This document shows, piece by piece, positions 11,911 through 59,493 of a stretch of DNA of 64,000 nt (the stretch's first letter is position 1; each line of letters opens with the position of its first letter). The position numbers were made by a program, and so were the translations under genes. This stretch comes from Nothopassalora personata (taxonomy: Eukaryota > Ascomycota > Dothideomycetes > Mycosphaerellales > Mycosphaerellaceae): positions 1,054,001 through 1,118,000 of the forward strand of contig CM066287.1 of the NCBI GenBank assembly GCA_033816765.1. Reading direction: 5' to 3'. The notes beneath the pieces were generated by a model that made no database searches, was not told where the DNA came from, and worked only from the letters and a program-made list of their open reading frames with translations.

Positions 11911-12107
11911 TGTAAGGGGCAGCCCAGTGGCTAACCCCTACATGTGGCCTTGCATGTGACATGCGGTCGCGACCGGCTGCCAAGCCGCACGTGACACGCA
12001 TGAGTACACCTTGCGACGCGCGATGCGTCTTGAACAAAAGGCAAGAATTAGTTCATCTACGACTGGCAGGTCGTGGGCGTGCTATACATTGCGACATCCC
12101 CTTAACA
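11911..12107 (+). repeat. 5' LTR of Gypsy-I (197 bp)
   Basis: It starts TGTAAGGGGC and ends CCCCTTAACA, giving short inverted ends. It matches the 3' LTR (18578-18774) base for base as far as I can read. Right after it comes GTTCTAATTCTTC, which has no obvious TGG primer-binding start; the same stretch is conserved behind the RIPed LTR at 53276-53473, so priming may be unusual. Confidence 0.96.
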
Positions 12108-12144
12108 GTTCTAATTCTTCTCTTCGTTGCAATCCATACACGCC

Positions 12145-13311
12145 ATGGAGTCCGAACGCGACGACAGCAGCGCTACGCTTGCGGCTCCCCTGAGCCCTAG
12201 GGCCCAGCAACAAGCGAGGCGTGCAGCCTTAGTCGCAAGGAGGGATGCCCTTCGGGCAGAGGTTGAGGAGAAGGAGATACAGAGGGAGATTGAACAGTTG
12301 GAGATCTTGCGGGACGCAAGCGTGCCGCCGGCGGACCCTCAGGGCGAATCCGGCGGAGAACTATCCCCTACTCCCCCTCCCCCTCCTCCATCTGTAGTAA
12401 CTGACGATGATATCGCAGCTCGAGGCGCGGTCGCATCGCATGCGACACGTTTGCGTCTCAAAGAACCTACGCCTTTTAGAGGGGACTCGATCAAGAAAGC
12501 ACGGGTATTCCTAAGGGAGCTCTCTCTTGTCTTTGCCCTCTCAGGCGGCACGTATGCGACGAACGAGTCAAAGGTCCTGTATGGGGTTATGTACCTAAGC
12601 GGAGAGGCAAGTGAGCGATGGCACGCCAACCATAGCGTCCTTGACCTTAAAGGGTATACATACCAGGACTTTGAGGAGTTCTGTCGAGACGCATGCGGTG
12701 ATCCTGTGAACCGCGTGCTCAACGTGATGTTGGAGTATGAGGCGGTGAAACAGAAGGACAACCAGACAGTGCGTCAGTTTGCGACTGAGCTGGATGTCAT
12801 GGAGGATCAGTTGGGGGACTATACGGAGGCGCAACGCGTGCGACATATGCTCGCTAAGCTTGCGCCTGGCCTGCGGTCCGCAATCGTCAAGTTTCATGAC
12901 ATCCCAACAACCAGAGAGGAACTGGTGATCCTGGCTTCGCGCATTGAAAGCACGGAGCGTGGCAGCGGAGGGCACGACCGCGGGCAGCATGGTCGCCGCA
13001 GGCGAGAGACTGAGGGCGACCAAGGGCGAAGCGATCGTGGCTCGAAGCAGCAGAAGCATAGTCAGGCGTCGCGCGACCCGGGTGCGAGTTAACAGCGGGA
13101 CGCCGGCGGATCGTCTGTGACCTTTGATAGGACCAAAGCGGAGTGCTATGGATGCCATAAGAAGGGTCACATTAAGACGGATTGCCCGAACAGGCACCTG
13201 TGGAAGGACCGTGGCGCGCAAGCGGTTCGCAGGGTAGACGCTGCGAAGGCTCTGACTGAGAAGGGCAGCGACCAGGGAAAAGGCAGAGGACCAGAAGTGG
13301 GTCGCTCCTGA
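12145..13311 (+). pseudogene. Gypsy-I gag, interrupted by one in-frame TAA
   Basis: The start at 12145 (context GCCATGG) is preferred over the upstream in-frame ATG at 12127. The N-terminal third is rich in Glu/Arg/Gln and probably coiled-coil. It is followed by the retrotransposon gag domain (about 12470-12960, including LSGEASERWHAN) and a basic segment. The frame stops at TAA 13090-13092, but the same frame continues to 13311 and carries the CCHC zinc knuckle CYGCHKKGHIKTDC. The RIPed relative near 52290 has TAG TAG at the matching place, consistent with two original glutamine codons, so the TAA most simply comes from a C-to-T change. Whether the stop is read through is unknown. Confidence 0.85.
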
Positions 13312-13859
13312 GTCCGAGTTTTCCTGAAGTCGACCCCTTGAGGCGAGTGGATGTGTGTCCATCGCAGCGACCAGGGAAAAGGCAGAGGACCATAAGTGGG
13401 TCGCTCCTGAGTCCGAGTTTTCCTGAAGTCGACCCCTTGAGGCGAGTGGATGTGTGTCCATCGCAGCGACCAGGGAAAAGGCAGAGGACCATAAGTGGGT
13501 CGCTCCTGAGTCCGAGTTTTCCTGAAGTCGACCCCTTGAGGCGAGTGGATGTGTGTCCATCGCAGCGACCAGGGAAAAGGCAGAGGACCATAAGTGGGTC
13601 GCTCCTGAGTCCGAGTTTTCCTGAAGTCGACCCCTTGAGGCGAGTGGATGTGTGTCCATCGCAGCGACCAGGGAAAAGGCAGAGGACCATAAGTGGGTCG
13701 CTCCTGAGTCCGAGTTTTCCTGAAGTCGACCCCTTGAGGCGAGTGGATGTGTGTCCATCGCAGCGACCAGGGAAAAGGCAGAGGACCATAAGTGGGTCGC
13801 TCCTGAGTCCGAGTTTTCCTGAAGTCGACCCCTTGAGGCGAGTGGATGCGTGTCCAGCG
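13266..13859 (+). repeat. 99-bp tandem repeat, six units
   Basis: Units start with CAGCGACCAGGGAAAAGG at 13266, 13365, 13464, 13563, 13662 and 13761. Internal units appear identical; the first has CCAGAAGTGG where the others have CCATAAGTGG, and the last diverges at its end. 99 bp equals 33 codons, so the pol frame stays open. The related RIPed element has a single unit at about 52020-52095 (minus). The unit is free of stops in several frames on both strands, which creates long spurious reverse frames. Confidence 0.95.
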
Positions 13860-14834
13860 CGTCACTTGCGAGGCGCAGTCGAGACTCGTGAGGGCTTTCG
13901 CGAGGCCACGTTTCTCCTGGATGACTGTGCGGATCTCAGCCTAGTGTCGTATGAGTATGTACTCCGACATCAAATGCAACCCATTGATGGGGCAAGGCTG
14001 CCGAAGTTAGAGTCGTATGCGCATGACCCAGGGTATTGCTACGGCGCCTTTGCGGTTCGGCTGCGACTCGCTGATGACGCGGGAGTAGAGCGCGTGAGTG
14101 ACGCCATCTGCTACGCGGTGCCTATGGGTAGGCCATCAGTGATTTTGGGTAGACCCTGGCGGCATCGTAATCGGATAGTGAAGGCCGATAAGGATGACCA
14201 GTGGTACTACGGTGCAGAGACGCCTGCGGTTCAGCAGCGTGACGCACGCGAGTTCCTTGAGGATCTCGAGAGCTCAAAGCAGGTTTATGCGATGAGTGTT
14301 CGGGCTATTGCTGCAGCAGTACCTGAAGGAGAGGGCCCCTCGTGGCCTGAAGAATTTGCAGACTTCCGAGATGTATACGCACCTAATGAGCAGGCGAAGC
14401 GCAAGATGCCCGACGGGGTTGAGCATGCGATTGATCTCGTTGAAGGAAAGAAACCCCCTTTCAAGCCGCTGTACCACCAGTCCTTGACTGAGTTGGAGGC
14501 CTTGAAGGAGTACCTTGCGCAAGCAATGGAGAAGGGGTGGATTAGGCGGTCCGCAAGCGAGGCGGGTGCGCCTATCCTGTTCGTGCCAAAGAAGAATGGC
14601 ACTCTTAGGCTCTGTGTTGATTACAGAGGCCTGAATGAGATTACAGTGAAGAACCGATACCCCCTGCCCCTAATCAGCGAGACGCTAGATAGGCTATCAG
14701 GTTCCAGGTTCTTCACTACAATCGATTTGAAGGACGCCTACCATCGTATCCCTATTAAGCGAGGCGATGAGTGGAAGACTGCGTTTCGCACGCGATACGG
14801 ACACTACGAGTACCTGGTGATGCCGTTCGGTTGA
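13338..14834 (+). pseudogene. Gypsy-I pol part 1: protease and N-terminal reverse transcriptase
   Basis: This frame is -1 relative to gag. After the 33-residue repeats comes a retropepsin-like domain (about 13860-14190) whose active-site region reads [13 protein letters not shown]; the RIPed copy near 51965 has a Gly where this one has Cys, so the protease may be impaired here. The RT begins near 14440 and shows [20 protein letters not shown], then [10 protein letters not shown] and YLVMPFG, where the frame ends in TGA (14832-14834). Compared with the RIPed copy at 50909-51075 about 56 bp are missing directly after this point, including the TNAPATF-type motif. Confidence 0.9.
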
Positions 14835-14844
14835 TGACATTTGC

Positions 14845-16832
14845 GTGGTCTACCTAGATGATATCCTCATCTACAGCGAGACGCGTGAGGCACACGTGCG
14901 AGCCGTACGCGCGGTGCTGGAGAGGCTACGAAAGTTTGCCCTGTTCGCAAACCCTAAGAAGTGTCACTTCTTCCAGGAGAGTGCAGAGTTCCTTGGGTTT
15001 GTCGTGAGCGCCGCAGGCGTGTCGATGGACAGGAGCAGGGTAGCCGCTATCGAGGAATGGCCTACACCTACGACCTTTCATGAGGTCCAGTCCTTCCTTG
15101 GGTTTTGCAACTTCTACCGGCGTTTTATAGAAGGATACTCAAGGGTCTGCAAGCCCCTAACGGACCTGCTAAAGGGATCCAAGGACGGCAAGAAGCACGG
15201 CCCTCTCACGTGGACCTTAAGCGAAGAGCAGGCGTTTCGACAGCTTAAGGCCGGATTCTTAGGTGCACCAATACTTAGGCACTTCGATCCTGCGCTGCGC
15301 ACGCGAGTCGAGACGGATGCCTCAGGTTTCGCGATCGCAGGTATCATATCCCAATTGTTTGGTGCTGAGTGGCATCCCATCGCGTTCTATTCACGCAAGA
15401 TGATACCAGCTGAGTGCAACTACGAGACGCACGATCAGGAGCTACTTGCAGTGGTTGAGGCTTTCAAGCATTGGAGGCCATACTTGGAGGGCGCTACGCA
15501 TGCGGTGCGAGTGCTAGTCGACCACGCTAACCTACAGGGCTTCATGACAGTAAAGCAGCTGAATGGGCGGCAAGCTCGATGGGCTACGTTCCTGCAGTCT
15601 TTTGATTTTGTAGTGGAGCATCGGCCGGGTAAGACTAACCCAGCCGACGCGCCTTCGAGACGCAGTGACTACGCAGCCATAACGCAACAAACTTCGAACT
15701 TGCTGCCTACCTTGCAAAGTAAGCTGTCTTTCTGGAAGGAGTCTCTGGAAGGGACAAGCGAGCCGACGGTGAAGCGCGTGCTTGCCACCTGCGAGGCGAT
15801 GCAGGGCGACATAGGCGCGGCGATGGCAATGCGGAGAGGTGACCTTCCCCATCAAGACAAGCCGTCTTTACCAGCAGCAGTGTGCGCTGCAGTGATACAG
15901 GGTCAAGCTTACAGCTCGACGGGTGAGTTGATCCCACTCTTGATGAAGATCGCGCAGCAGCAAGACGACCAGTGTGTCGCATGCTTGGCGCAGGCGCCAA
16001 GCGCGAGGGACGCCAAGGGATGGCATGTGAAGGATGACCTTGTGTACTGCGGAGACGCGATCGTGGTACCCAGGGATCACGCAATCAGGTCGCATCTGAT
16101 TCGCATGCACCACGACGACGTCCTCGCGGGTCACTTTGGAAGGACCAAGACTGAAGAGCTGTTGCGACGTAATTATTGGTGGGACCCACTTAGCACGGAC
16201 GTGAAACAATACGTCCAAGCCTGCAGAACCTGCCAGGGTTCGAAGGCGAGGCGCCATCGACCCTACGGCGAGCTGCAACCGCTTCCTAGACCGGAGCGAC
16301 CGTGGCAGGAAATCACCATGGATTTCATTACGGACCTACCTCCAAGCACGCGAGCCGGTTGCGTGTATGATGCGATCCTAGTGATAGTCGATCGCTACTC
16401 AAAAATGAGCTTGTACATCCCGACGACGAAGACTTGCACAGCCGTGGAGCTTGCGAGGCTCCTGCGAGACGAAGTCGTGCGACACTATGGTGTCCCGTCA
16501 GGCATAGTGAGCGACCGAGGTCCGGTCTTCACTAGTCAGTTTTGGAGTGACTTCTGCTTCGAGGCGCGTGTGAAGCGCAAGCTATCCACGGCCTTTCACC
16601 CTCAGACTGACGGCCAAACTGAGAGGGCAAACCAAACCCTCGAACAATACCTTCGTTGTTACTGCAGTGACAATCAAACTGAGTGGGCTGAGTGGCTTGC
16701 AGTTGCTGAATTCGCAGCTAATAACAGCATCCACCCAACACTGCGGATGAGTCCGTTCGAAATAGCGCACGGTTGGCGACCTGAGATTGCCCCTGCACCA
16801 ACTGGATCTCGAGACGAGACCCAGGGGGGGGG
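14845..16832 (+). pseudogene. Gypsy-I pol part 2: RT palm, RNase H, integrase core
   Basis: The frame opens with the RT catalytic motif VYLDDILIY. RNase H follows (about 15230-15620; TDASG at its start, YNTHDQELLAVV-like segment near 15420). The integrase has an HHCC zinc-binding region (LIRMHHDD...GHFGRTKTE, then CRTCQGS) and DDE residues in MDFITDLP, SDRGPVFTSQF and TDGQTERANQ (about 16320-16640). The upstream RT portion is in another frame because of the deletion near 14832. At the G9 run (16824-16832) the reading frame shifts; the conserved protein continues in frame 2, while this frame ends at 16971. Confidence 0.92.
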
Positions 16833-17371
16833 AAGTACCAGCAGCGGTAACAGCTGCGAGTCGCATGCGAAAACTACGCGCTACACTCGAGGAGCGATGG
16901 AAGGCTGCAGCAGAAAGCCAGGCTCGCTACTACAACAAGACCCACCAAGCCAAGACCTACCGCGTAGGTGACTTAGTCCTGTTGTCAACGAAGAACCTCA
17001 AGTTGGCAGTGCCAAAGAAGAAGATGGGTCCGAAGTTCATCGGCCCATACCGCATTACGGACGCTGTCGGTTCGCAGGCGTACCGCCTAGCGCTACCAGC
17101 CGACTCAAGGCTCCACAACGTCTTCCATGTCTCTCTCCTCGAGCCGTATATCGGTAGCGATGAGGATGGACCCGTACCCCCTCTAGCTAATGAGGACGGA
17201 GAGTATGAGGTAGAGGCAGTGCTGGATAGGCGTAAGCGCAAGGGCAAGCTGCAGTATCTAGTCCAGTGGAAGGACTGGCCAGAGGAGTACAACAGCTGGG
17301 AACCGGCGGAGGGCCTCGCGAATGCGGATCGCATGGTAGCCGGCTATGAGGCGTCAAGGAGAAGCAAATGA
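16833..17371 (+). pseudogene. Gypsy-I pol part 3: integrase C-terminus and chromodomain
   Basis: It contains the GPF/Y-type module (KKMGPKFIGPYRI..., then HNVFHVSLLEPY) and, at the C-terminus, a chromodomain (YEVEAVLDRRKRKGKLQYLV, then QWKDWPEEYNSWEP). Chromodomains are known to direct chromovirus integration to heterochromatin, which would fit this nested neighbourhood. The frame is +1 shifted from part 2 owing to one extra G in the run at 16824-16832, judged by comparison with 41640-41660 (minus). Confidence 0.92.
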
Positions 17372-17505: not shown

Positions 17506-18276
17506 TCAGTTGTCGTCACGCAGTGACTCAGGCAAGAATGCCTGGTCGGCAGTGGTGGCGGCGGCGGCGGAGGCACGCATGCGGGTCTCCCCGGCACGCT
17601 TGTGCTTGTAGGCATTGAACTGCCTGATGGCCTATAGGAAGGGTCAGCCGAAGCACAGGGGACGCACTAGAGCCCTCCCCCGCGAGTAGCAGTCGACTCG
17701 CACGAGCGAAGCAGCGACTTACCTCCTTGATGTCGTTGCCCAGCTGGGCACACAGGCGGATCTGCTCCACCAGCTCCTGCTGCTGGAGGTCTGTGGGCGC
17801 CTGGCCCATCATGGCCGTGAGGAAGTCGCGCTGGGACCGCGCGTCGCGCAGGCGGCTCACCAGCGAGGCGATGGCGTGGCTGGTGTTGGGCACGCAGCTG
17901 TGTTTGCTGCGCCTGCAGCGGCCACACTTCTTCAGGAGCTCGCCGGTGGTGACACTATCACAGTCATCGGCCTCGTCTAGCAAGTGGTTAGCATGCGAAT
18001 CGCAGGCGACGCGCGTGGAGACTTACCCCTGACGAAGTACGGGAGGCACCGCATGCACATGTTGATTCTCTGCGAGAGCTTGGTGGCTGGCGAGGGCGTT
18101 GGTGGCTGCGAGGGTGATGCTGGTCGCTTGCGACCACCAGGCGTTCTGGGTGCGTCGCGCACCAGAGCCGCCTGGCGGCGCTCGTCTTCTGCGGCGCTGG
18201 TGGTGCTGTCGCTGCTGGTGCTGCTGGAGGAGGCGGAGCGGCCAGAGAATGGCGGCGAGGAGGGCACGGCCGACAT
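17506..18276 (-). CDS. Antisense three-exon gene in the Gypsy-I 3' region (Cys-cluster/coiled-coil protein)
   Basis: Exon 1 is 18276-18027 (250 nt), exon 2 17976-17723 (254 nt), exon 3 17631-17506 (126 nt including TGA); together they encode 209 aa. Intron 1 (17977-18026, 50 nt) has GTAAGT, a GCTAAC branch point and TAG. Intron 2 (17632-17722, 91 nt) has GTAAGT, GCTGAC and TAG. The protein starts with a Ser/Thr-rich region, then has the motif CMRC, a cysteine 11 residues later, and after 11 more residues CGRCRRSKHSC. The spacing C-x2-C-x11-C-x11-C-x2-C-x6-C resembles, but does not match, the Zn(II)2Cys6 cluster. A helical, Gln/Glu-rich region follows. The RIPed Gypsy-I copies keep exon 2 at exactly 254 nt with both splice sites, so this is a family feature. 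It may bind nucleic acid; function unknown. Confidence 0.75.
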
Positions 18277-18394
18277 GATGATGATGATGATGCTGGCGAG
18301 GCGCTTGCGATGATGGTGCGGTGCGGGTGCGTGGTGGTGGTGTGGCGAAGGTGATGAGCTGGGGAGCGTGCTGAGAAAGGGCTGGGTTGGGCTG

Positions 18395-18406
18395 GAGTTT
18401 TATGCC
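18395..18406 (-). promoter_or_regulatory. TATA-like box for the antisense gene
   Basis: On the minus strand the sequence reads GGCATAAAACTC, about 120 bp upstream of the ATG at 18276. It lies inside the element between the antisense ATG and the 3' LTR. This is a motif match without other support. Confidence 0.35.
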
Positions 18407-18562
18407 CCTAACCAGCTGCGTCGGCATGGCAACCAAGCCTCACTCACCTACACCTACATGACGACACGCACGCAACCCGCATGTGGGCCGCATAGCAACT
18501 ATGGTTCTGGAAGTACATAGGAGCCTCTACGTAGCAACTAGCGAGCTGAGGACAGCTCGCAC

Positions 18563-18573
18563 GGGAGGGGAGG
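18563..18573 (+). promoter_or_regulatory. Polypurine tract of Gypsy-I
   Basis: GGGAGGGGAGG lies a few bases before the 3' LTR start (18578), the position expected for plus-strand DNA priming in LTR retrotransposons. Confidence 0.75.
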
Positions 18574-18577
18574 CAAT

Positions 18578-18774
18578 TGTAAGGGGCAGCCCAGTGGCTA
18601 ACCCCTACATGTGGCCTTGCATGTGACATGCGGTCGCGACCGGCTGCCAAGCCGCACGTGACACGCATGAGTACACCTTGCGACGCGCGATGCGTCTTGA
18701 ACAAAAGGCAAGAATTAGTTCATCTACGACTGGCAGGTCGTGGGCGTGCTATACATTGCGACATCCCCTTAACA
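18578..18774 (+). repeat. 3' LTR of Gypsy-I (197 bp)
   Basis: Identical by eye to the 5' LTR. It is followed directly by TTAAG (18775-18779), which repeats 11906-11910. Identity of the LTRs indicates a recent insertion. Confidence 0.96.
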
Positions 18775-20509: not shown

Positions 20510-23500
20510 TCGACACTAAACACAGTTTTCTAGATATAAGCAATCGTTAACGGACATAGGACTAGTGTTATAATCGACTCCGGAGTAGCGGGGAGCTTTA
20601 TTTCCGAGTCTTTCACAATAAGAAACGGGCTAGCTACCCTAAAGAAGAAATAGGGTTACGAATTAATCGCGGTAGACGGATTATCGTTACCTAGCGTAGA
20701 ATAGGAGACGACACTATTACTACTAGCTATCTAACAGTACTACGAGAACATTACCTTAGATGTCACTAATATAGCTAGTTATAACATAGTATTAGGTATG
20801 CCTTAGTTAAGAAAGCATAATCTAGTTATCGACTAGAGGAGAAGAGTACTTACATTTAGGCAATGTAACTACGTTATAGGTATTGAACCTACGCATCGAT
20901 AGCGGACGATAGTAGATAAGGCAAGGAAACAGCTTAACGCATTCGAGCTTACGCCGAATAGAAGGAATTAAGAACTACCTTCGACCGGGATAGATACTAG
21001 CGTAGGGCTGCCGAATTACGAAATCACTAGAACGGATAAAAGTAACGCACTATCGAAGGATGCTAGTATATCGGAACTAAGTATTCCTAAGGAGTACCTT
21101 AAGTGGAAAAGGCTCTTTAAAGAGGAAAAGGGCAGAGACGCCTTACCTAGACACTAACTATAGGACTACAAGATAAACATTTAGCTAGGGAAGGAGCCTC
21201 TATAGGGACCCCTATATTAAATGTCCGAGAAAGAGCTTAAAACCCTACGAGAATAGCTAAAGGAGAAACTCGATAAAGGATAGATAAGAAGATTCACCTT
21301 AAGTGCGGGAACTCTATATATGTTTGTTCTAAAACAAAACGGGAAACTACGACTCGTATAAGACTACCGAAAGTTGAACGAGATTACGATAAAGAACCGA
21401 TATCTATTACCGAACATCGAAGAAGCATAGGACCAACTTACCGGATCCGACTAGTACATAAAGATCGATCTACGAGACGCCTTCTACGCTATCCGGATAG
21501 CGGAAGGAGAGGAATGGAAAACCGCATTTAGAACACGATACGGACTCTACGAATTCTTAGTTATGCTAATAGGACTGACTAACGCACCCGCATCCTGTTA
21601 AGACCTAGTTAATGAGACGCTAAGAGAACTTCTCGACGTATGCGTTATTGCCTATATAGACGACATCCTCGTCTACACTAAGGGATCACTATAGAACCAC
21701 GTTAGACAAGTCTAGGACGTCTTTAAGCGCCTTACACGAGTAGGGTTCAAGACGGCACTAGAAAAATACGAGTTCTATAAGAAACAAGTTAAATTCCTCG
21801 GATTTATCATAAGTACAATAGGAATCTAGATCGACCTAGTAAAGACATAGTCTATCGAAGAATGGCCGACGCTAGCTAACGTTAAGGACGTACAATCGTT
21901 CCTCGGACTCGCGAACTATAACCGCAAGTTTATTAAGGACTACTCTAAAACGGCTATAGCTATAACTGCACTCACTAGGAAAGACACTAAGTAGACCTAG
22001 GGCAATAAAGAACGATAAGCTTTCGAAATACTTAAAAGACAGTACGCCTTAGCACTAACGCTTCGACTATTTAACGGGATAAAGGAAGTCCAAATCGAAA
22101 CGGACGCATCGGACATAGCTATAGGCGCATGCCTTACATAAGAACACGATGGGAAAAGACACCTAGTGGCCTATTACTTAAGAAAAATGACACCCGCGGA
22201 ACAAAACTACGACATCCATAATAAGGAACTTCTCGCTATTGTCGCTATAATGTAGTACTAGAGAGTATACGCGGAAGGAGTACCTAAGCTAACGATTCTT
22301 TCTAATCATAAGAATCTTACTTACTTCACTATAACGAAAGTACTAACCCGAAGATAGGCCCGCTAGTCGGAATTACTCGGATAGTACAAGTTTAAAATCC
22401 GCTATACCGTAGGAAAAGACAACGGTAGGGCCGACGCACTAAGCCGAAGAAGCGACTACATAGAAGGAAAGGAACTAGTGCAATAACAAGTACTTAAGAC
22501 TAATCTAGATGGAAGTCTAAGCGCTAACATAAAGGAGTTTAATAACATAGTGCGCGTTCTTTAGGACATAGAAGAACAGTTTCTACTAGTACAAGGAAGA
22601 TACTAAGTACCGAAAGGACGAGAAGAAGAATGTATACGATAACATTACGATAACCCGATGTGCGGACATCCTAGAACTATAAAGACTCTCGAGATTATAT
22701 AACGTAGCTTCTCATTCCTACAAATGAGACAAAAGGTATTAAACTACATTAAGCAATGTGTTTACTGTTAATAAAATAAGGCTGCACGACACGAGAAGTA
22801 TAGACAAATACAGTTTAGGACACTACCGACACAACTATAGGACGAGGTTACGATAGACTTCATTACGAAACTTCCTATATCTACGGATAAGGCGATAGGC
22901 ACGGAATACGACATAATACTAGTTATAGTCGATCGCCTAACGAAATATGCACACTTTATACCTACCTACGAGACATACACGGTAGAGTAACTCGGTTATC
23001 TCGTTCTCAATAAGCTAGTACGATACTACGGATTCCTAAAGGTCTTTATTATAGACCGAGACAAGCTATTTACATCTAACTACTAGAAGACTCTTATAGC
23101 GGAAATTAGTATATAACATAAACTGTCTACGGCATATTACCTATAAACGGACGGATAAACTAAGAGAGCAAATCAAACCTTAGAACAATACCTACGACAC
23201 TACGTTAACTACGCACAAGACAACTAGGTATCACTCCTACCTATGGCACAACTTGTACTAAACAATTACAAACTAGAAACAATAGGCGAAACACCTTTCT
23301 TCGTAAATTTCGGAAGACACCCTACGCTATTCGGTAACAAGAGAGATTACCTACAAGCGGAAAGGGCTATCGCTATAACGGAAGACCTAAGAGAGGTACA
23401 CAAATCCGTTAATAAACGAATTCGGGACTCGTAGTAACGACTTACTAAATCTCGTCGAAAATAACAAATGGCACCTTAGCTAAAGAAGGGGGATAAAGTC

Positions 23501-23890
23501 TACCTTCTTATAAAAAACCTTAAGACACGAAGGAAGACTAAGAAACTAGATTATGTGAAAGTCGGGCTATTTCTCGTTAAAGAGTCACGAGGACTAGTTA
23601 ACTACCGACTACAACTACTAAAAGATGCTAAAATCCATCTAGTGTTCTACATCTCCGTGCTGGAACTAGTAGACCCTAAAACGCTATGCTAGGAAACATT
23701 CTACTACTAACTAGAAGAGGAAACCGAATTCGAAGTCGAAAAAATCCTAGATAAGAGAGGTTAGCGATACCTTGTTAAGTGGAAAGGATACGACAACTTA
23801 GAAAATACCTAGGAACCGAAAAAACACCTACGAAACTATTAACAGAAAATTAAGGATTACGAGAGAAGGAAGAGACCTACTACCTAACTA
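20510..23890 (+). pseudogene. Gypsy-II pol (protease, RT, RNase H, integrase, chromodomain), RIPed
   Basis: Reading through stops shows an aspartic protease with a DSG triad (IIDSG, about 20570), RT with PASC-type and YIDDILVYT motifs (about 21585-21690), RNase H with ETDASD (about 22095), integrase with an HPRTIK-like HHCC region (about 22660) and a D..E core (about 22860-23180), the GPF/Y-like module (about 23480-23660) and a chromodomain (about 23715-23830) containing LVKWKGYDN. The only long open piece, 23243-23434, lies in the integrase. TAG replaces Trp and Gln codons throughout. Confidence 0.82.
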
Positions 23891-28639: not shown

Positions 28640-31600
28640 ATTATAGCTTTAGCTAGTCCTTCGTTACGCCCGGCTAGCTCGAGTATAGCGCTTACTAGTA
28701 CTATTACTAGGCTTACCCGCCTACCTTAGACCTTGTTCGAGTCCCTTCGTCTACCGGATAACGTTAAGTATGTCCTTACTAATACGAACACGCCGAAGTC
28801 CGCCGCTAATATTATGTTCCGAGAGCTTAGTCCTTAGAAGCGGGTTAAGGTGTTAAAGGACTTCTATAAGGGCTTCGAGAAGGTGTTCGAAGACTACTCC
28901 GTCTAGGTTAACCTATTTTTCGAGGAAGTTAAGAACGGTATAGGCAAGAGCTACTAGGATAAATTCCTTAGTAATAAGAAGCTCGATGTCTTATTTCCTA
29001 TCGTCGGTAAGATTCGTAAGACCGGTTTAGATTGATTATTCCATTAACGTGCTATTTGAGTCAAAGACTATGCAACACGGGTCTCGAGAACGAGACCAAA
29101 ATTTGAGAGAAGGAGAAAAGCCCCGTCGTACCCCGGACGTAAAAACTCCTTAAAAGATGCGAGCAACGCTCGCTATTCGAACCGTAAATCGAATATATTG
29201 CGGCGTAGTACGCGCGTACCCGGTAGTCGTGTCTTGTCGAGAATTGCGGTTTGTCGCCTTGCCCCGGGCGAGACAAGTTTTGCGCCCGTGTCTCGTTCTT
29301 GTTTTAAAAGCCAAGCCGGCCGTACCCGTGCGCACCGAGCAAAATCCCAAGAAACACCCGTTGCCTCTGTTTCAATCCAGTCGCGTTCTCCGGTCTCGAG
29401 TGTAGCTCCTCGGTCGCAGTGGCCTCGCTGTCGTCCCCCCCTCGGCCTCTCTTGGTTCCAGCCGTGCAGTATACGTGGTTTGCGCCCCTAAACGCCTCTC
29501 TTGGTTCCAGCCGGCAGTTTACGTGGTTTGCCGGGACGACAGGTAGGCAGCGCCTTCGTTGTTCGAGCGACGTGTACGCTATGTACGTCGCTTTCCCTTC
29601 TCGCAGTTCCGGAGTTCTTGTTTGTAGATTTTGAGCGTATCTCGTTCGTTCGGTTCGTCCGACCTGTCTTTTCTTGTTTCGAGTCGAGTAGGCTTGTATT
29701 TTTCGAGAGAGAGAGTCTTAGTTTCTCTTCGTCGTAACGAAGATACTTACGTCGTCCGCCGCGTGAAGGCGCTCTCTATAGGACGACAAGACCGGTTTAG
29801 AGATTCGTAACCGAGAGAAGACTCTTCGAGCTACGCTTACCCGCCACTAGCTATAGTAGATAGATAATAAGATTCTTAATCGACGCGTTATCTCCGAGCT
29901 TTATAGTACTAACAGCGGGCGCCGCTAGTTCACGGCCTTTATTAACAAGTACCTAGACTATAGTAGGGCTATTAGTAGAATTTAGAGGGCATTAATCTAG
30001 CGTATAAGGATCGGCCATAAGGGCATAGATCGTAAGCGAATTCTAGAGCCTAGTAATCTTACCCGGTGCGATAGGGAGGCTAAAGCACGTAGCATTAATC
30101 CGCAGTCGGCTAAGAGTAGGGAGATTATTAGAAGATACCGCCTAGCCGTCTATAAGGATAGCCTTCTATACTTTATAGAGGGTACTATTACTAAGAAGTC
30201 CGCGTCCCTAGAGGACAGCATAGATCAACCTAGACCATCTAGCTAGTAACTGCCTTAGCTACATTAGCTACTACCGGGTAGTAAAGGCAAAGGACGTGTA
30301 AAGAGTACTACGCTAACTCTACTAGCCTCTACCTAGCCTATAGTCCTATCGAGAGGCGGTCGTAAGTCGAGTCGACTTAAGTAGCTCCGTATAGGCGAGA
30401 GCATAGGTAAGGGCATAACTACGCCTACTTAATCCTCGCCTAACCGAACGCTAGACGGCGCACCTATACGCGAAGGCAGTCCGCTAGGTATACCGGTTAG
30501 TACCCTACGATCCACTCCGGCCCTAACTAAGAATAGCAATCCGATACTTACTATGTTACCTTCGGCTATAATTAGGGATGTATTAGTCTTTAAGGATTAG
30601 ATCCTATAAGAAGACGAGGCCCTCCGGATTAAACGCGCTAACTACACCTATAATAAGCGGTACTATAGCATTAAGTTTAGAAACTCGATTAATGTAGATA
30701 GCATTAACTAGCTACCTAACTACCGGATAGCGGGCCTTAAGATGCTCGAATATGCTGTCTCGTAGGTTCTTAAGAGGGATAGTAAGGTTAGCGCTATAAT
30801 GTGCGATTAGCATGTTCGAGATTTCTACTACAAGGCCCTCTACTTCGTTACGAATCCCGGTATTACCGCTAATACCCTATGTAAGCGTGCGCTTAAGGTC
30901 TAAGACTAGCTTTTTAAAGGCAAGAGTTTTTTAGCTATTAAGGTGAAGAATAGGTCGTAGTTTCGCCCTAATAAGCGTAGTTAGAAGACTATTAACCCGC
31001 TTAGCTACCTCCGTGTTCGAGGTAAAGTCGGTACTACAAGTAGTATCGTTACGTATACTAACTATAACTAGATCCTCGATAAATTTAGTATTAATGAAGC
31101 TAACTAAGCCGATCTTAATAGCACCGGTACCTACATTAATAGTAATATGCTATACTAGTATAATGACGCTAAACTAGCGCTACGGGTTAAAACAGTTAGA
31201 GAGATAATAAGTCGAGAATTCGACGTATACCGATAGTACCTACGAGAATTAAATAAGGTTAGTAACGGCGGCGTCTACTAGAACATGTAGTATTCTCTAA
31301 GCTAATAGATTATACGATAAGACCCCGGGTTATAGCTCTTATAAGTAGCGCTATACCCTTAACACTACACTCGGTTTATCTCCTTCCCTAGGCCTACGAT
31401 TTTTAGCTTTAATAGGGCTTATTAGGGGGTGACGCGAACACTATAGTGCAGTATGCTAGGGTCGACTTAAACCTCGAAATTGAAAACTACTAGACTAGTA
31501 ACCGGCTTAACATGCTATACTCTCTTAACTTAGAGGGTACTAGTAGGCCGGAGTTTTTACACGGTTTTCATAAGTAAGGGAATGCTAGAGAGTTTATCTA

Positions 31601-32330
31601 GTAGTGCTAGATTAACGACTGCATAGAAGACGGCCGATTTAAGCGTTTCTTCTCGGTTAGGGTCTAGAATTACCTAAGTAAGAATAGCATTAGCTAGTTT
31701 AGAGAGGACCTAAGCGCTAGGTAAATGCGGGTAACTACTATAGGCGTTCTAATAAAACAGGCCGTATATAAGAAGACGCTACGTTAGATTAACCCTTACT
31801 TTATCGAGATCCGCGACGATAACTATCTTAAACTCTAGAGAAGCTAGAGTATGTACTAGGTGATAGACCTCTATCGTGACTTTAAGACGCTAAGTAAGAG
31901 CGCTATAGGGTTTAAGTATCGACGCCTAGTACCCGGCTATCCTTTTCCTACGGCCGTACACCTTAGTAGCATTAGCCCTCTATCCGATGCCCTAGTAGGT
32001 TTAAAGTCTTAGAACGATAACGAAGTCATCCTTAATGCTAGAAGGTGGCTTAATGCTACGGTCCGCCTAGACTCGGAGCTCTTTAATAAGAAGATGCATA
32101 ATTAGCGCGTCCGAGCTATAAAATTAATAGACAAGTAGCTTAGCTTAGTCACTACTCTCGAGTAGATGTACTTTATAAGCGAAGGGCGTAATAAGAGCTT
32201 CTTCCGTAACTACTATAGGAACTTCACTAGCTAGCTACTTAGGGACGCGTCTAGTAAGACTAGTATTAGCTACGATAACGAGTAGGTCTAGACAAAGGAG
32301 TTGTGTAAGAATGAGTGGAACTAAGTAGTT
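28640..32330 (+). pseudogene. Long degenerate coding region of element X
   Basis: Read through TAG/TAA, the plus strand gives a protein-like sequence over about 3 kb once the SINE-like insert (29032-29787) is ignored. An early piece is rich in Lys/Arg and aromatic residues (FRELSP and YKGFEKVFEDY at about 28815-28900). A Pro/Ser/Thr-rich linker lies at about 30230-30560, and a second globular part runs from about 30600 to 32320. There may be two or more frames. I recognise no catalytic motif of DDE, tyrosine recombinase, helicase or RT type. Confidence 0.45.
29032..29787 (-). mobile_element. SINE-like retroposon, copy 1 (756 bp, not RIPed)
   Basis: It is flanked by a 14-bp duplication AAGACCGGTTTAGA (29018-29031 and 29788-29801). 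The right arm shows the empty site near 62955-62975. The 3' end, at the left on the minus strand, ends GGAATAATCAA, with one TCAA unit against two in copy 2. The sequence is GC-rich with normal CpA/TpG and contains a roughly 50-bp internal duplication (TCTCTTGGTTCCAGCCG occurs twice, about 29447-29514). There is no terminal inverted repeat and no convincing ORF. Long variable target duplications, a simple-repeat 3' end and 5' truncation of copy 2 are hallmarks of target-primed insertion. Confidence 0.75.
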
Positions 32331-32929
32331 AGTGCGGGTTTATAGGCTCCTAGTTTCTAGTTAATTTCCAGCTACAGCTGTAGCCTATAGGTTTCTAGTT
32401 CTAATTCTAGTTCTAATTCTAGTTAATGCTTCGGGTACGGGTACTTCTAGTCCTTATATCTTACTTGTTTCTTATAGTCACTTATCTTCCCTTAACTTAC
32501 TTTCTAGCTACGCGATAGACTCGTCTTTAGATTTATTAGGTTACTAGTACTAACACTCACTTATCTTATAAATGGCGTTTACATTATTCGACTATCTAGC
32601 CCGTTCGGTTAATGCTAACATAGCTGCCCAATCCCTCGCTAGTTTCGTAGTATACGTTAACGTAGTGCAACGGGCGCGAGTCGCGGATTATTAACGTTAC
32701 CGTTACGGTCTCTATTAAAGAAATTCTTTCGACCTTCATAAACTGTCGCTAGTAGGCCCTAGGATTGCCTAACATCTTATATGTTAAGCTAAATAGTAGG
32801 ATGAGCTGCTATGCTACTATAAGACTACCTTAGCTTATAGCGACTAACTAAGCTACCTATAGTGCCCGGGCTTACTGCTTTAGAACCTAAGGACAGGTTC
32901 GTAATAGGGGAGGATATATTAACGACTGA

Positions 32930-33010
32930 TAGGTTATGTTAACCTTAGGTCTAGAGGGTGTTAACCTTAGGTCTAGTTATGTCGACCTTAGGTCTAGAGG
33001 GGGGGGTTCC
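32930..33010. repeat. Short tandem repeat with CCTTAGGTCTAG core
   Basis: TTAACCTTAGGTCTAG and its variants follow one another three times, ending in GAGGGGGGGG. It is mirrored in the right arm at about 59744-59824. It lies in the noncoding tail of element X. Confidence 0.65.
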
Positions 33011-33336
33011 TTAGGTCCAACTTGCCCTAATTTCATTTAGGTTTGATTAGACATTTAGGTAAGCTAGCAGGACCTAGTATAGCTATTAAGATATATATAC
33101 TACGTAGCTAACTATTGTAAGCGTAGCATTAAGGCAACAATTCAATTTATACCTCTCGAGTAGAGGGTATAGGAGTTTAGGTCCGCCAATCCTCTTGTTT
33201 TATCTAGCTACTGCGCTGCTCGTCACGTGACCTTATTTCACGGTCCCGGGACCGGTAAATACCTCTGCTTACATAAGCGCCGCTCCATACTACCACAACT
33301 TAGATAGGCCTACATAGGGTAGTTAGTAGACATTAA

Positions 33337-33583
33337 TAGCGTAATACCTTAAGTCTTATCTATAGGAATAAGAAGCTACGCTATATTAGGTCTATTATCT
33401 TTAAAGTTCTAGAGTGTCCGTAAGTTAGTCTATCGTAATTTTATTATATATATTCTTCTTCGTAATCCTTTAGTACTTAGTATTTTCCTTACGATATAGG
33501 GAACTATTCGTCCTTATTGCTTAGTATTCGAACGATGTTATTAAATTCTCTTATATTTATACTAAGACTTCCGTCGTGGTTCG
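33337..33583 (-). mobile_element. Gypsy-II remnant (pol region) in the left arm
   Basis: From ATTAATAGCG to GGTTCG the sequence parallels 46105-46365 of the complete Gypsy-II (same orientation), the segment between RNase H and integrase. It is interrupted on the right by the Gypsy-I LTR at 33584. The continuation expected beyond the other LTR (TCCTTAGTATC) is not found at 53474. Confidence 0.8.
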
Positions 33584-33781
33584 TATTAGGGCCGTAAGGC
33601 TATAAGGGGATGTCGTAATGTATAGCATGCCTACGATCTTCTAATCGTAGATAAACTAAAGCTTACTTTCTTCTATCGACGCTATGCGCGTCTCCTAGTG
33701 TACGCATGCGCGTTACGTACGGCATACTAAGCCGGGCATAGCCCCATTATATATAAGGGTTAGCTATAGGCTACCCTTATA
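33584..33781 (-). repeat. 3' LTR of the RIPed Gypsy-I copy (198 bp)
   Basis: Ends read TATTAGGGCC and CTACCCTTATA, which are RIPed versions of TGTAAGGGC...GGCTACCCTTACA seen at 53276-53473. It aligns over its length with the intact Gypsy-I LTR. The left flank is Gypsy-II sequence (GTTCG), which differs from the flank of the 5' LTR (TTAAT), so the two LTRs do not share a target duplication. Confidence 0.85.
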
Positions 33782-35711
33782 ACTACCTCCCCTTCTAGGA
33801 CGAGCTACCCTTAGCTCGCGGATTTAGGAGGTTTCTATATAAGTAATCTATCTACTTCTCGTAGATTCCGTTACTATGTAACCCGCCTACGGGTCTCGTA
33901 CGTGTCGTTATCGTAGTATAGGTAGGTGTAAAGTTATAGTTACCGGGTTAACTAACACGAGGGTTTAAGAAGCGTACTATCTCCCTCCTTTTCCTTCTTT
34001 TCCCTTATACTACGTTCTCGTAGCGTACTATACCCGTACTACTAGCGATCTACTAGCTCCTCGCTAGCGACTATCTAGCGACCCGCTAGTACTACTATAG
34101 CTTTAGAGGAAGCTATCTAAGACTAGCTCCGCTAGGAGGCCCTTATAGGGGGCCTATTAGTACTACTAACACTATTACTAGTACTACTAGTATAGATGTC
34201 TAGCGCGCTCGGCACTAAATACGCTAGCTAAGCGTAAGTTTAGCGTACTAGGGCCGTAGACCCCTAAGTCCTTACTAGCTAGGCGCCTAGGTATAGATAT
34301 TAAGATATATATACATTATCTCCCGTACTTCGTAGCTAGTAAGTATTCGCTACGCTCTTCGCTTACGATACGCTTACTAATAGTATAGTAGACTAGTAGG
34401 ATACGTGTAATAGTGTTACTACCGGCGAGTTACTTAAGAAGTATAGGCGCTATAGAGACATTAGGCACCCCTACGTTAGTAACACTAGCGTCGCTATCGC
34501 GTAGCTAGTAGCTCGCCTACGCGCCGCTCGCGCCTAGCGCGATAAGCTTATCTAGGGGCTTAGTAACCCTATTACTAAATAAGAGTAGGATGCTCTAGAC
34601 TAGTAGTATAACGTCTACGCCTAGCTAGGCAAGTAGATCTTAGAGGTAAGTACTACGCCTCGCTAGCGCTCCCTACGCTCGCCGTGTACGGCGTACTGTC
34701 GCTCCCTATATAAATCGGCTAACCTCCTCCTAGGCTAACAGGCAGTTTAGTACCTATAAGAATAAGCGTATAGGCGACACCCGCGTACGCTTTACCGGCG
34801 CCTCTACTACTACTACCCCCTCCTCCGCCGCCGCTACTACGTCCGTAGTTCTATAGTAAGAGTAGAACAGGGCCCTTAATAGGCTCTTCAAGCTCGGCCG
34901 TGCTATAAGTACTATACGTGTCGTATACGTGTCCTATGCTAACCGTAGTTATAGTTCCTATAGGCTAGAAACATCGATACCACCGCGGCCGATAGGGCCT
35001 TCTTACTACTAGCCCTACGGGGCGAGTATAATAAGGAGGATAATAAGGATAATAATAACGAGTAATTGCACGCTCTGCGTATATTAGCCGCCTACTACGC
35101 GCCTATCTTCTATCTACGTAGCGCCGTAGCGCGCCCTATAAAAGTTTATTTTTAAAATAAATACTCTTCTCTCTACTCTTCTCTCTCCTTACCTCCCTCT
35201 CTAATGTTATTACTATCGGGGGTGTTCGCTTAACTAAGTAAGCGAGCCTTTTAGTCCGATAGAACATACTATAGGTTAGTATCTTATATGTAGGTTATAG
35301 CTAAGTTTACTATCGGGGGTAGAGGTCCTTATATCTAGCTACCGAAGGGTTAAGGCCAAAATATATAACCTATGCCCTTATTTTAGCGCCTTATACGGCC
35401 TTCGTAGGTACCTGATATTCGACTACTATACGCGTAGCCTTCGCGGATCCTTCCGCCGGCTTATACCGTCTTCGCTAACGCCTTATATTCGGCTACTATA
35501 CGCGTAGCATTCGCGAGTCCTTATACTAGCTCCTAGCTATTATACTCTTCTAGCTAGCCCTTCTATCGTACTAGGTACTACACTTTACCCTTATACCTAC
35601 GCTTTCCTAGTACTACCTCTACTTTATATTCCCCGTCCTTATTAGCGAGGGTTATAGTACCTCTATCCTTCTCGCTACCCGCGTACGGCTCGAGGAGGGA
35701 TATATAGAATA
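33782..35711 (-). mobile_element. 3' part of RIPed Gypsy-I (chromodomain end and noncoding tail)
   Basis: On the minus strand 35711-35440 continues the integrase C-terminus and chromodomain from across the Copia B insertion (homologous to 17135-17371 of the intact copy). The rest is the 3' region with the antisense gene on the plus strand. Other details: an AT-rich palindrome TTTATTTTTAAAATAAA at about 35144-35160, a hairpin-like GTTCGCTTAACTAAGTAAGCGAG (about 35225-35247; only its arms GCTTA/TAAGC pair), and a near-duplicate pair of GGCTACTATACGCGTAGC stretches around 35415 and 35490. Confidence 0.85.
34089..34880 (+). pseudogene. RIPed copy of the Gypsy-I antisense gene (left arm)
   Basis: It lies antisense to its element, like 17506-18276. 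The exon 1 end is followed by a GTAAGT donor at 34339; the acceptor TAG ends at 34391. Exon 2 is 34392-34645, 254 nt, exactly as in the intact gene, and is followed by GTAAGT (34646) and an acceptor at 34731-34733. Several cysteine codons have become TAT/TAC, and stops (TAG) have appeared. The VTTGELLKK stretch is still readable. The exon 3 equivalent starts with homologous residues and then runs past the intact stop position. The start is estimated from the intact exon 1 length. Confidence 0.7.
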
Positions 35712-35958
35712 TGTTAAGATGTAGCATCTTAGGGGGAGCTAACAGTTAGGTTATGATCTAATAGCCTAAGGCATCTACGATAACTTAGCTTATCGGAAGA
35801 CACCTTCTCTCCCCTTTAGCTTAGATAGACATCTAACACAACTAACGCATTGGTTCCTAATATATTGCTGCATGCCCTGTAGCTGTTAGCTAGTTAAAGA
35901 TTAATCTCTTACTCTACTCCGCTACTAACTACGTATCCTATAAGGTCTTAACTTTACA
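35712..35958 (+). repeat. 5' LTR of Copia B (247 bp)
   Basis: It starts TGTTAAGATGTAGC and ends AACTTTACA. It differs from the 3' LTR by scattered transitions, which reflect mutation after insertion and so cannot date the insertion by normal clock rates. Confidence 0.95.
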
Positions 35959-36404
35959 GGTTATAAGCCCGGGTTTGTGCAGGAGTAAGAGCAACCTATA
36001 TTAGTACAGGTTACTTATATCCCTTGCTATTATAGCAGAAAACATCTAGGAAGTAGAAGTCTACCCTATCTATCCTATTAAGGAGCTTAGTTTAATACTA
36101 AGTAATAGGTAATCTAGAAAAGGACTCTATGCAGCTTACTATAAGCTAATACCTTAAAGACACTCTATAGGCAGAACTGCATCGAGATACTATTAAGAAG
36201 GACTTTAAGCAAGTTATTTGGAACTCTACTAGGAGAGACAGACCTATGTCCTAGCTCCGAGACTATACCGCTCTTTCTTTACCCTACTAAGTAGGCCTTA
36301 GTATCTACACCTACGAACCTTACTATTCTACGCTAAAAGCCTTAGCAGGACCTGAGCCACGACTTTAAAGCATATACACCTTGTTTTATTATATTCAATT
36401 TATT

Positions 36405-39400
36405 ATGGATTTATACTAAGAGAAAGGAGAAGAGAAGGGAACTAAAATCCCAATTCTTAGGAGAGACAACTAGAAGAGATAGTTCAACCTTTAGAGATAT
36501 AAGATAGAGAGCCAGTTAGCATTCTTTATAATTGATGACCTGTTAGAAGTGTTATTTAACAACATTAAGGGCAAGAACCTAAAACTCTAGGAAGAGACTA
36601 AGATTAAAGAGATTCTTAATATACTAACATAGACAAAACAAAATGCAGCTTACTGCTTTAGTATCCTAAGTAGGATTATAGAAGAAGATGAATTTAAGCT
36701 TAAGGGCTCTTGCGAATCTAGAAAAGCTACTAAGATATAGGTGCATCTCTAGAACAAGTATAGCTAAGTGTTACTAACCTATGCACATAAGCTTACAAAA
36801 CAGTTTGTGAACTTTAAGATAAGTGAAGAGTTCACTATTAGATCTGTATAGACACACCTAGTGTCTCTTAGAAGGAGGATTGCTAATATTAACCTAGAGG
36901 GCCAGTACTATAGGAAAGCTAATATAAGAATAACCTAGCTTTTAAGCTTACTGCTACCTAACTACCATATAGCTAGGGATACTATTATAGCTTAGCTAAA
37001 GATGGATTATAAAAGGACCTTAAAGATCCTTAAGGCTTAAGAGGCTAGATTAAATCCCTCTAAGGCTAAGTATAGTATAGTAGCTACCTAGGTTAGGCCC
37101 TTAGGTTAGGCAAGATTACTTTCCTGCCTTCTCTATAAGAAGGACTATCTTATTAAGGACTGCCCTAGTCTCTCTAAGGCAAAGAAGGTCCTTAGATCTT
37201 ATTCCTAAGCACTATCCTCCTAGAATGCAATATATGTTAAGAAGAGAAGATCTCTACTACTATCTTTAAGAAGAACACTAAGAGAGAAGTCCTCTATAGA
37301 GGAACTTAAGAAAATAGTAAAGAAACTTAGCTCTAACATGCTATTACTCTAGAAGAACTAGGCCTAGTCTCCTTCCTCTAAAACAAGGAAGACTAGGAAA
37401 GGTTTCTCTACCTGAGAGCTACCTAACTTATGCAACTTATCTTAGAAGACAATGTCTAATAATAATAAGTATAATAAAGTGGCTTACTTAAATACAGAAG
37501 TCTAAGGCAAGTTCCCCTTATTAGAGTAGTTACTTAATTCTTGTACTTTATCCTATATAACTAACTAGAACTGCCTCTTTAGATCCATAACTCCCTTAAT
37601 AAAGAAGAAATAGATCAAGGTAGGAGGTAGGCATTTGTTAGCCACTTATATTAGGACTATAGAGATGAGTAGGAGATCTAGCAGGAAAGTTGTTTTAGAA
37701 GATGTTCTACTTATACCTAAGCTAGGGGTGAACCTAGTTTCTTAGAACTAGTTTAGTAAGCAGTTTAGTGTCTAACCTCCTTCATTTTCTCTTGTATCCC
37801 CCTCTAGCTAAACTATTGTCTAGACAAGGCTTCTTAGGGGGGTTCTATTTATTAATGAGATTTCTCCTCTACTATAAGAAAGGGCACATTACTTATTATG
37901 TGCACTACTAATAGAGAATGCCTTTGTAACTGCTAAATTAGAGACTAACCTAAAACAGTAGGAGCTTTAGCATAGAAGATTTGTACACTTTAGGAAGAAC
38001 TTGCTCTAGAATCTTTACAAGGTAATAGACTTAAAAGAACCTATTCCTATTCCTAGGGATAGCTTCCACTAGTACAGAGTATGTTTAATAGTAAAGATAA
38101 AGAAGTACAAAGGCAAAGTTACTAAGAGAAGACCTAAAAGACTTGCCCTTGTATCTATTAACATATGTAGTCTACTGCTAACATTAAGGCTAGGGTTCAA
38201 ATACTAGCTTAAGATTATTAATAACTTCTCTAGAAAAAAGTGGACCTGTCCTCTTAAGAAAAGAGAAGATGCTCTAGTTGCTCTCTAGAACTAGAAGATT
38301 AAGGCAGAGAGGAAATTATTAGTATAGTTGAAAGCAGTTAGGCTTAACAATGTAAGGGAACTTATTGCATTAGTTAAGCAGTAGGAGAAGGATTTAGGAA
38401 TTAGGCTAGAGTATACTAAGGCATACAACTCGCTCTAAAATAGACTAGTTAAAAGGTTAATACAAACCTTAGAAGACTCTATAAGGGCAATGCTTAAAGA
38501 GGCTAAGATGCTAATTAAATTCTAGCCTAAAGCACTAGAAGCCTAAACCTACATAAGGAACAAACTACTAAATAGTCTAGACTATAATAGGTTTAAGGTT
38601 TCACTAGATAAAGCCTTTAATAGTATTAAGCTAACTATTAACCATTTAAAGGTTTAGGGATGTAAAGCTATTATCTACATAGACATAAGATCCTAGCCTT
38701 AATAGGCAAGAAGTAATAAACTAATAAATAGGGGCAAAGAAGTAGTATTTGTTAGATACGTTAAAAACACAGCTAAGGCCTAGCTCTTTTAGGAACTAGA
38801 CATAAAAGCTGTTAAACAACACACACATATAGACTTCTTTAAGGACCAACCTAGAGGTAATATAGATCTCAATGTTATAAAATTGAATCTATTAAGCAAT
38901 GTACTAGCTAGGAGACCCTTAGGGAGGCTAAGGAAGGATATATCCTTAGAGCAACCTATTTACCATTTAATTATTTAGTAGAGCAGCCTAGTAACAGCCT
39001 AGCTAAGAAAGCTGTTTATACAACTTCCCTAGCCTCTAGAGAATGTAGGGGAATTTTAGAAAATCGATAAGCTAATTAAGATAAGCTTACTAGATCTCTA
39101 GGAAAAGAATGTTACTAGGACACAAGTAACTACTCTTAGATTATCCCTTAGTAAGAGGAGGGCTAACTATAATGTTAAGGGCTATAAATAGAAACAGAAA
39201 GCCCTAAGATCTATAGTCCCTATACCTAAACTAGCTACTAAAGTAGGAGAAGCAATAGACCTCTTAGAGAACCTTGCTGCTTACTACTAAGCTTTCTTTA
39301 CAGCTATGCAATTAGTGGATGATTTAGTACTATAGGATAGTAAATTCCTAGAAGAAGTTAAGGAGATAGCCTTTATAGCAACTGTAGAAGTTATTGCATA

Positions 39401-45050: not shown

Positions 45051-45059
45051 GTGTTTTCC

Positions 45060-58972: not shown

Positions 58973-59170
58973 TATAAGGGTAGCCTATAGCTAACCCTTA
59001 TATATAATGGGGCTATGCCCGGCTTAGTATGCCGTACGTAACGCGCATGCGTACACTAGGAGACGCGCATAGCGTCGATAGAAGAAAGTAAGCTTTAGTT
59101 TATCTACGATTAGAAGATCGTAGGCATGCTATACATTACGACATCCCCTTATAGCCTTACGGCCCTAATA
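58973..59170 (+). repeat. Gypsy-I 3' LTR in the right arm (198 bp)
   Basis: Inverted counterpart of 33584-33781, with the same RIPed ends (TATAAGGGTAG at the left edge). Confidence 0.85.
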
Positions 59171-59493
59171 CGAACCACGACGGAAGTCTTAGTATAAATA
59201 TAAGAGAATTTAATAACATCGTTCGAATACTAAGCAATAAGGACGAATAGTTCCCTATATCGTAAGGAAAATACTAAGTACTAAAGGATTACGAAGAAGA
59301 ATATATATAATAAAATTACGATAGACTAACTTACGGACACTCTAGAACTTTAAAGATAATAGACCTAATATAGCGTAGCTTCTTATTCCTATAGATAAGA
59401 CTTAAGGTATTACGCTATTAATGTCTACTAACTACCCTATGTAGGCCTATCTAAGTTGTGGTAGTATGGAGCGGCGCTTATGTAAGCAGAGGT
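59171..59493 (+). mobile_element. Gypsy-II remnant and short unassigned flank in the right arm
   Basis: 59171-59417 is the inverted counterpart of the Gypsy-II piece 33337-33583. 59418-59493 (about 75 bp, GTCTACTAACTACC onwards) is not assigned and may be part of element X's outer end. Confidence 0.7.

Follow-up and report, generated by a model that had tools for sequence, protein, structure and literature searches.

An antisense gene behind pol of a chromovirus

The window, as we here call the whole stretch of 64,000 nucleotides of Nothopassalora personata DNA that was analysed, contains a Ty3/gypsy element with a chromodomain and, between its pol gene and its 3' LTR, a gene with spliced structure on the opposite strand. 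The features of this element, in order along the window, are as follows.

11911–12107, + strand: 5' LTR, 197 bp, with the target duplication TTAAG directly before it
12127–14834, + strand: gag frame, tandem repeats of 99 bp, and the beginning of pol as far as the first part of the reverse transcriptase (RT), which is broken by a 59-nt deletion near 14828
14845–17371, + strand: remainder of pol, with the end of RT, RNase H, integrase, Tf2-type SH3 and chromodomain, pol lying in two frames in the window copy
17506–17631, − strand: exon 3 of the antisense gene with the stop codon; older copies have exon 3, intron 3 (59 nt) and exon 4 here, with 167 additional nt at about 17551
17632–17722, − strand: intron 2 of the antisense gene, 91 nt, phase 0, GTAAGT..GCTGAC..TAG
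17723–17976, − strand: exon 2 of the antisense gene, 254 nt, with four of the six clustered cysteines and a stretch modelled as helices at low confidence
17977–18026, − strand: intron 1 of the antisense gene, 50 nt, phase 1, GTAAGT..GCTAAC..TAG
18027–18276, − strand: exon 1 of the antisense gene, 250 nt, with CMRC near its end
18277–18577, − strand: region upstream of the antisense gene, a putative antisense promoter, with a TATA-like stretch, CATAAAAC, some 125 nt upstream of the ATG
18578–18774, + strand: 3' LTR, 197 bp, with TTAAG directly after it

Read letter for letter, the antisense gene (17506–18276, − strand) gave a frame of 209 amino acids with two clean introns, starting at the ATG at 18276–18274 and having a stop codon that ends at 17506; its unspliced frame contains internal stops. 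This agreed in every letter with the three-exon model of a preliminary description of this DNA, including the coordinates, donors, branch points, acceptors, phases and protein length, and both of the cysteine motifs named there, CMRC and CGRCRRSKHSC, are present in the protein. The gene is convergent with pol, the stop of which is at 17371, and 134 nt separate the two stops. Just upstream of the start codon is a run of CAT repeats (18277–18293) that differs in length among young siblings of the element.

The order of Pfam domains in pol (RVT_1, RT_RNaseH, Integrase_H2C2, rve, SH3_Tf2-1 and Chromo) is the chromovirus order of RT, RNase H, integrase and chromodomain, and the element has the LTRs and the 5-bp target duplication expected of that class, the two LTRs being identical and flanked by TTAAG. 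The LTR pair was also 100% identical in 20 of 20 siblings in the genome, and a 5-bp target duplication was found in 16 of the 17 siblings with assessable flanks, being absent in L016 (L012, L024 and L025, with insufficient flanks, are left out of this count). The element had been described as intact. Its ends bear this out, with regards to both LTR identity and target duplication, but pol is broken in the RT, where the window copy is without 59 nt that all 20 siblings carry, and the 20-mer around its gag stop occurs in none of the 20, so that the element as a whole cannot be called intact. Between gag and pol (13265–13858) there are tandem 99-bp repeats (33 codons), with a marker motif occurring two to six times among the 20 siblings. 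Nine bases behind the 5' LTR (12111–12119) are complementary to 12043–12051 inside the LTR, a sort of complementarity that is known from self-priming elements of the Tf1 type.

Older copies, the four-exon form and a second branch

The genome that was scanned comprised 54.5 Mb in 40 contigs. Using the gene region as a DNA query gave at least 57 matched pieces (40 of 315 candidates scored) and using the antisense protein gave at least 202 (150 of 1092 candidates scored), with the understanding that one copy may yield more than one piece. Among the DNA pieces, 21, including that of the window, showed 99–100% identity across the full 1001-base query, and the regions behind pol in the 20 young siblings were 99.2–99.8% identical to that of the window; one of these 21 young copies has a TAG in exon 1. 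The aligned older copies showed C-to-T and G-to-A change throughout, which is the mark of repeat-induced point mutation (RIP), and most other matches listed in the protein search had internal TAG stops. The 20 siblings (L009–L028) represent a burst of near-identical elements free of RIP, in a genome where the older copies are heavily RIPed.

Two further copies free of RIP, L045 and L046, carry 167 extra nt at window position 17551, and the same piece was held by all 15 of the 15 aligned RIPed copies of this first branch. It consists of 36 codons together with a 59-nt phase-0 intron 3 (GTGAGT...TGCTAAC...TGCAG), whereupon the frame rejoins the same C-terminus, DQAFLPESLRDDN. L045 has four exons (250, 254, 165 and 69 nt), three introns and an open frame of 738 nt encoding 245 amino acids; exon 2 of L046 is 1 nt shorter through a deletion private to that copy, and L030, also free of RIP, has the short form plus a further 93-nt deletion that removes intron 1. 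Because the extra 167 nt are found in older copies both with and without RIP, the three-exon gene of the window is, as judged from these alignments, derived, having lost intron 3 along with exon sequence in a way that kept the frame. By chance, such a loss would leave the frame in register one time in three, and the young lineage multiplied despite losing 36 codons of the C-terminal part. Over 18 aligned first-branch rows, the ends of intron 1 were GT..AG in 15 of the 17 rows bearing it (with one AT and one GC donor), those of intron 2 in 18 of 18 and those of intron 3 in 17 of 17.

The preliminary description had also proposed that introns in this orientation are spared in retrotransposition. 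The aligned copies indeed retained them, with the exception of intron 1 in L030, in which the 93-nt gap around that position is not an exact intron, so that L030 is no processed copy. Patterns for the exon 1–2 and exon 2–3 junctions, covering first-branch copies in which RIP variation is limited and allowing up to two mismatches, each had zero matches in the genome. This is what one would expect of an antisense RNA that does not serve as the template of replication, and it agrees with the proposal while proving little. Survival of the introns would follow from the genomic RNA of the element being the complement, where these signals would not be read as splice sites.

Searching the genome with an old copy, we found relatives that were 67–74% identical to that copy and 62–64% identical to L045, here called the second branch, one of which (L048) had at least 39 other matches in the genome at 95–100% (40 of 523 candidates scored). 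The window itself contains two RIPed second-branch copies of the gene, which, like the ancestral fourth exon and third intron, had no place in the preliminary description.

34103–35065, + strand: RIPed second-branch copy of the antisense gene, with exons at 34103–34338 (start approximate, the first part being poorly alignable), 34392–34645, 34734–34904 and 34964–35065
57689–58651, − strand: mirror copy of the second-branch gene, lying in the second arm of an inverted repeat, with exons identical to those at 34103–35065

The inverted repeat is 7.3 kb in size (29790–37063 and 55691–62964), its arms being 100% complementary although RIPed. In the second branch the gene is again antisense to pol, with a chromodomain match at 35781–35467 (− strand) beside the copy at 34103–35065, and with pol and chromodomain on the + strand in L054 followed by the gene on the − strand in the overlapping locus L047. 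The positions of the three introns are those of the first branch. The donors of introns 1 and 2 were GTAAGT in three of three copies and that of intron 3 was GTAAGT in one copy and ATAAGT in two, with TAG as the acceptor in nine of nine cases. Exon 2 has the same length as in the first branch, exon 3 is 6 nt longer and exon 4 has a stop of its own, in frame, whereas the difference in exon 1 length (236 versus 250 nt) is not reliable, since the first 210 nt align too poorly. The second branch showed no TATA-like stretch where it aligns with that of the window copy.

At two loci (L043:1–458 and L049:1–460), an upstream region 89–91% like that of the second branch and 69–70% like that of the first is joined to a first-branch gene, and these recombinants show that the putative promoter and the gene have been exchanged between the branches. 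L047 and L048 entered the branch comparison given below and L049 the recombinant test, with L050–L053 being matched by BLAST only. The window also holds a third, distant gypsy family (21647–23875 and 45020–47215), at 33–39% to pol and chromodomain.

Purifying selection on the spliced frame

A dN/dS analysis among copies free of RIP had been suggested, but the 21 young copies (that of the window plus 20) are nearly identical and hold too few changes for it; it was the RIPed copies that revealed purifying selection. For these, non-RIP changes (all except C-to-T and G-to-A) were determined against L045 as reference and compared with shuffles that keep the changed base. In the spliced frame of 13 RIPed copies, 21 of 53 non-RIP changes were synonymous versus 8.9 expected (sd 2.7), and none of 2000 shuffles reached 21. 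This set left out L029, having an 80-nt exon deletion, and the recombinant L043, with its very divergent upstream region; with both included (15 copies) the result was 21 of 56 versus 9.5 expected, reached by one of 2000 shuffles. The two shifted frames had no synonymous excess (12 versus 16.0 and 16 versus 16.1 expected), and a mild excess was seen in frame 1 of the opposite strand (16 versus 10.4 expected, 79/2000 shuffles) as well as in the unspliced frame 0, which coincides with the true frame within exon 1 (22 versus 14.9 expected, 66/2000). Using transversions alone, 13 of 37 changes were synonymous in the 13 copies (6.2 expected, 4/2000 shuffles) and 13 of 40 in the 15 copies (6.7 expected, 26/2000). 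The RIP-type changes of the 13 copies showed little excess (89 of 182 versus 77.2 expected, 95/2000).

When taken singly, exon 1 gave the strongest signal (13 of 32 synonymous, 29/2000 shuffles), with exons 2, 3 and 4 not being significant (3 of 10, 315/2000; 2 of 6, 391/2000; and 3 of 4, 65/2000, respectively). The exon indels common to at least two of 16 copies were of 6, 3 and 3 nt, all multiples of three, and the four non-triplet exon indels were each private to one of these copies; a 1-nt deletion common to six copies is located in intron 2.

We also compared the branches, again with L045 as reference, over coding positions 211–720, which begin in the last part of exon 1 and reach into exon 4. 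For the three second-branch copies, which belong to one branch and are thereby not independent, 26 of 95, 27 of 97 and 26 of 96 non-RIP differences were synonymous versus 16.4, 16.9 and 16.8 expected, and these numbers were reached by 15, 17 and 9 of 2000 shuffles, in the same order, with no excess in shifted frames. The same test applied to pol as a positive control gave 76 of 152 synonymous versus 32.6 expected, and 27 of 58 versus 12.9 for the chromodomain part. The synonymous excess between branches was thus about 1.6-fold for the antisense gene versus 2.1–2.3 for pol. On these sequence comparisons, purifying selection acts on the spliced antisense frame as a protein-coding gene in two branches, which have conserved the gene with the same structure, and the gene is constrained, but less than pol. 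The earlier view of it as a protein-coding part of the element with a spliced structure hereby gained support.

The encoded protein, its possible role and known systems

The protein is basic (pI 9.4), with the basic runs RKR, RR and KK and an N-terminus rich in Ser and Pro. Its six clustered Cys residues, at 74, 77, 89, 101, 104 and 111, have the spacing C-x2-C-x11-C-x11-C-x2-C-x6-C. The six codons were TGY or the direct RIP product TAY in three of three second-branch copies; in the 15 old copies of the first branch this held for 89 of 90 cells, the remaining one being TCA at 77. This pattern fits conserved cysteines, being no proof thereof. The spacing differs from that of the fungal Zn2Cys6 cluster (PF00172), which is C-x2-C-x6-C...C-x2-C-x6-C, and that profile gave no match in Pfam at E up to 10, in a search whose filters drop most matches above about 0.1. 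Only sub-threshold matches to Rpn3_C and Herpes_UL92 were obtained in Pfam. Exon 2 modelled alone gave four helices at a mean pLDDT of 59, too poor for a fold search, and both the helices and a dimerisation of the protein are guesses from this model.

No relative of the protein outside this genome was found in the protein database or in viral contigs. The database searches, which need shared 5-residue words, gave 1045 candidates for the 209-amino acid form, with none at E up to 1, and 6653 for the 245-amino acid form, with none at E up to 10. Among viral contigs there were 29 pattern matches with none confirmed, and PDB had no match at E up to 10. A control query with pol found fungal proteins in the same protein database, with Elsinoe, Venturia, Pseudogymnoascus and Fusarium among the 120 listed of 3446.

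With moderate confidence, we favour the interpretation that this is an accessory protein gene of the chromodomain Ty3/gypsy element, having its own promoter and being spliced, and that its product is most likely a nuclear regulator of the element that binds DNA or chromatin. The gene would be transcribed from a promoter just inside the 3' LTR and its transcript would be spliced, with three introns ancestrally and two in the young lineage of the window. As the template of replication would be the other strand, the introns would not be removed in transposition and a multi-intron gene could persist. The most likely site of action of the protein would be the nucleus, where the six-cysteine cluster and the basic segments would bind DNA or chromatin, and the protein may dimerise through its helical C-terminal half, tuning expression or silencing of the element itself.

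It seems rather unlikely that the gene instead is a host gene, captured antisense as DNA or as read-through RNA with introns, that helps the fungus or helps the element otherwise, for example as a particle or import factor. The three introns would suit an origin as a spliced cellular gene, and the Cys pattern resembles that of fungal zinc-cluster proteins in general shape, though with no profile match. The protein database, as searched through shared 5-residue words, gave no relative, and the genome search, covering the best 150 of 1092 candidates, was filled by repeat copies, which leaves room for a host paralogue. Even less probable is a function of the antisense RNA itself, with the protein being incidental, such that transcripts running from the antisense gene into the 3' end of pol would give double-stranded or antisense RNA that regulates the element. 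The convergent arrangement, with 134 nt between the stops, would allow for this, and regulation at the RNA level is discussed for plant elements by Vicient and Casacuberta (PMC7264820), but the synonymous excess in the spliced frame, the shared exon indels that keep the frame and the conserved intron positions are not expected of a role in RNA only, and this explanation is weakened because the selection is frame-specific. A chance open frame with chance splice-like signals, about which the 20 nearly identical young siblings are on their own uninformative, is refuted by the extra exon and intron of the older copies, the frame-specific selection on the spliced frame and the conservation of gene and splice signals in a branch only 62–64% identical.

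An antisense gene in this position has precedents, which the preliminary description did not bring up. The gene called brtn is an extra antisense gene between pol and the 3' LTR of Boty-like gypsy elements with a chromodomain in Botrytis cinerea and Sclerotinia (Zhao et al. 2011, as described in excerpts of PMC7264820, PMC4227169 and PMC8365987), and an excerpt of PMC5987419 reports a transcript from Monilinia that is 63% identical to BRTN. As far as these descriptions go, brtn and the gene of the window share the antisense orientation, the place between pol and the 3' LTR and the host, a fungal gypsy element with chromodomain. The protein database, in which sequences from other fungi are present, gave nothing similar to the antisense protein. 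In plants, the antisense open reading frames called aORFs-3R (Grande gene23, RIRE2, Retand TRP28 and PvRetro13) are located between pol and the 3' LTR in most copies, with the Grande protein being nuclear and its gene having its own promoter, and with that of Retand predicted to bind DNA (PMC7264820 and PMC11963269, in part). The plant proteins differ from that of the window, Retand is described as belonging to a non-chromovirus lineage, unlike the element studied here, and the available parts of the same two papers mention no multi-intron antisense gene. The gene of the window has the position that defines the aORF-3R class, which includes brtn, and that of the second branch is likewise antisense behind pol. 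As regards carriage by most copies and conservation like that of element proteins, which also mark this class, the gene has many copies, with at least 57 DNA and at least 202 protein pieces (some copies giving more than one), and is under selection that between branches is weaker than that on pol.

The words 'antisense' and 'intron' were absent, by term search, from the text of a 2011 survey of fungal LTR elements (PMC3248453), and for such elements the open-access literature, seen in excerpts, gave us no antisense gene with several introns. Antisense accessory genes have been little studied as a class, to which the present gene adds a case supported by protein-level evidence, and since one genome holds many young copies free of RIP as well as old RIPed ones, evolution of the gene becomes directly measurable. 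Retroelements tend to lose introns of the sense strand, and a conserved and selected multi-intron gene in antisense shows a way round this.

Among viruses, the closest parallel is found in HBZ and the APH proteins of human T-lymphotropic viruses, which are encoded antisense at the 3' end of a retroelement, are produced from spliced transcripts and regulate LTR-driven expression, HBZ being nuclear (PMC10186651, in part). HBZ is a bZIP protein whose transcripts start in the 3' LTR, according to the same excerpt, whereas the antisense protein of the window had no bZIP match in Pfam, and its gene has two to three introns inside the coding sequence. We would tentatively suggest, as a possibility held with less confidence than the accessory role as such, that at least two branches of this lineage of elements have retained an antisense gene with three introns whose product is a nuclear regulator of zinc-cluster-like type. 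This would be a functional counterpart of HBZ of independent origin, and its antisense position would be what allows a retroelement to have a gene with introns.
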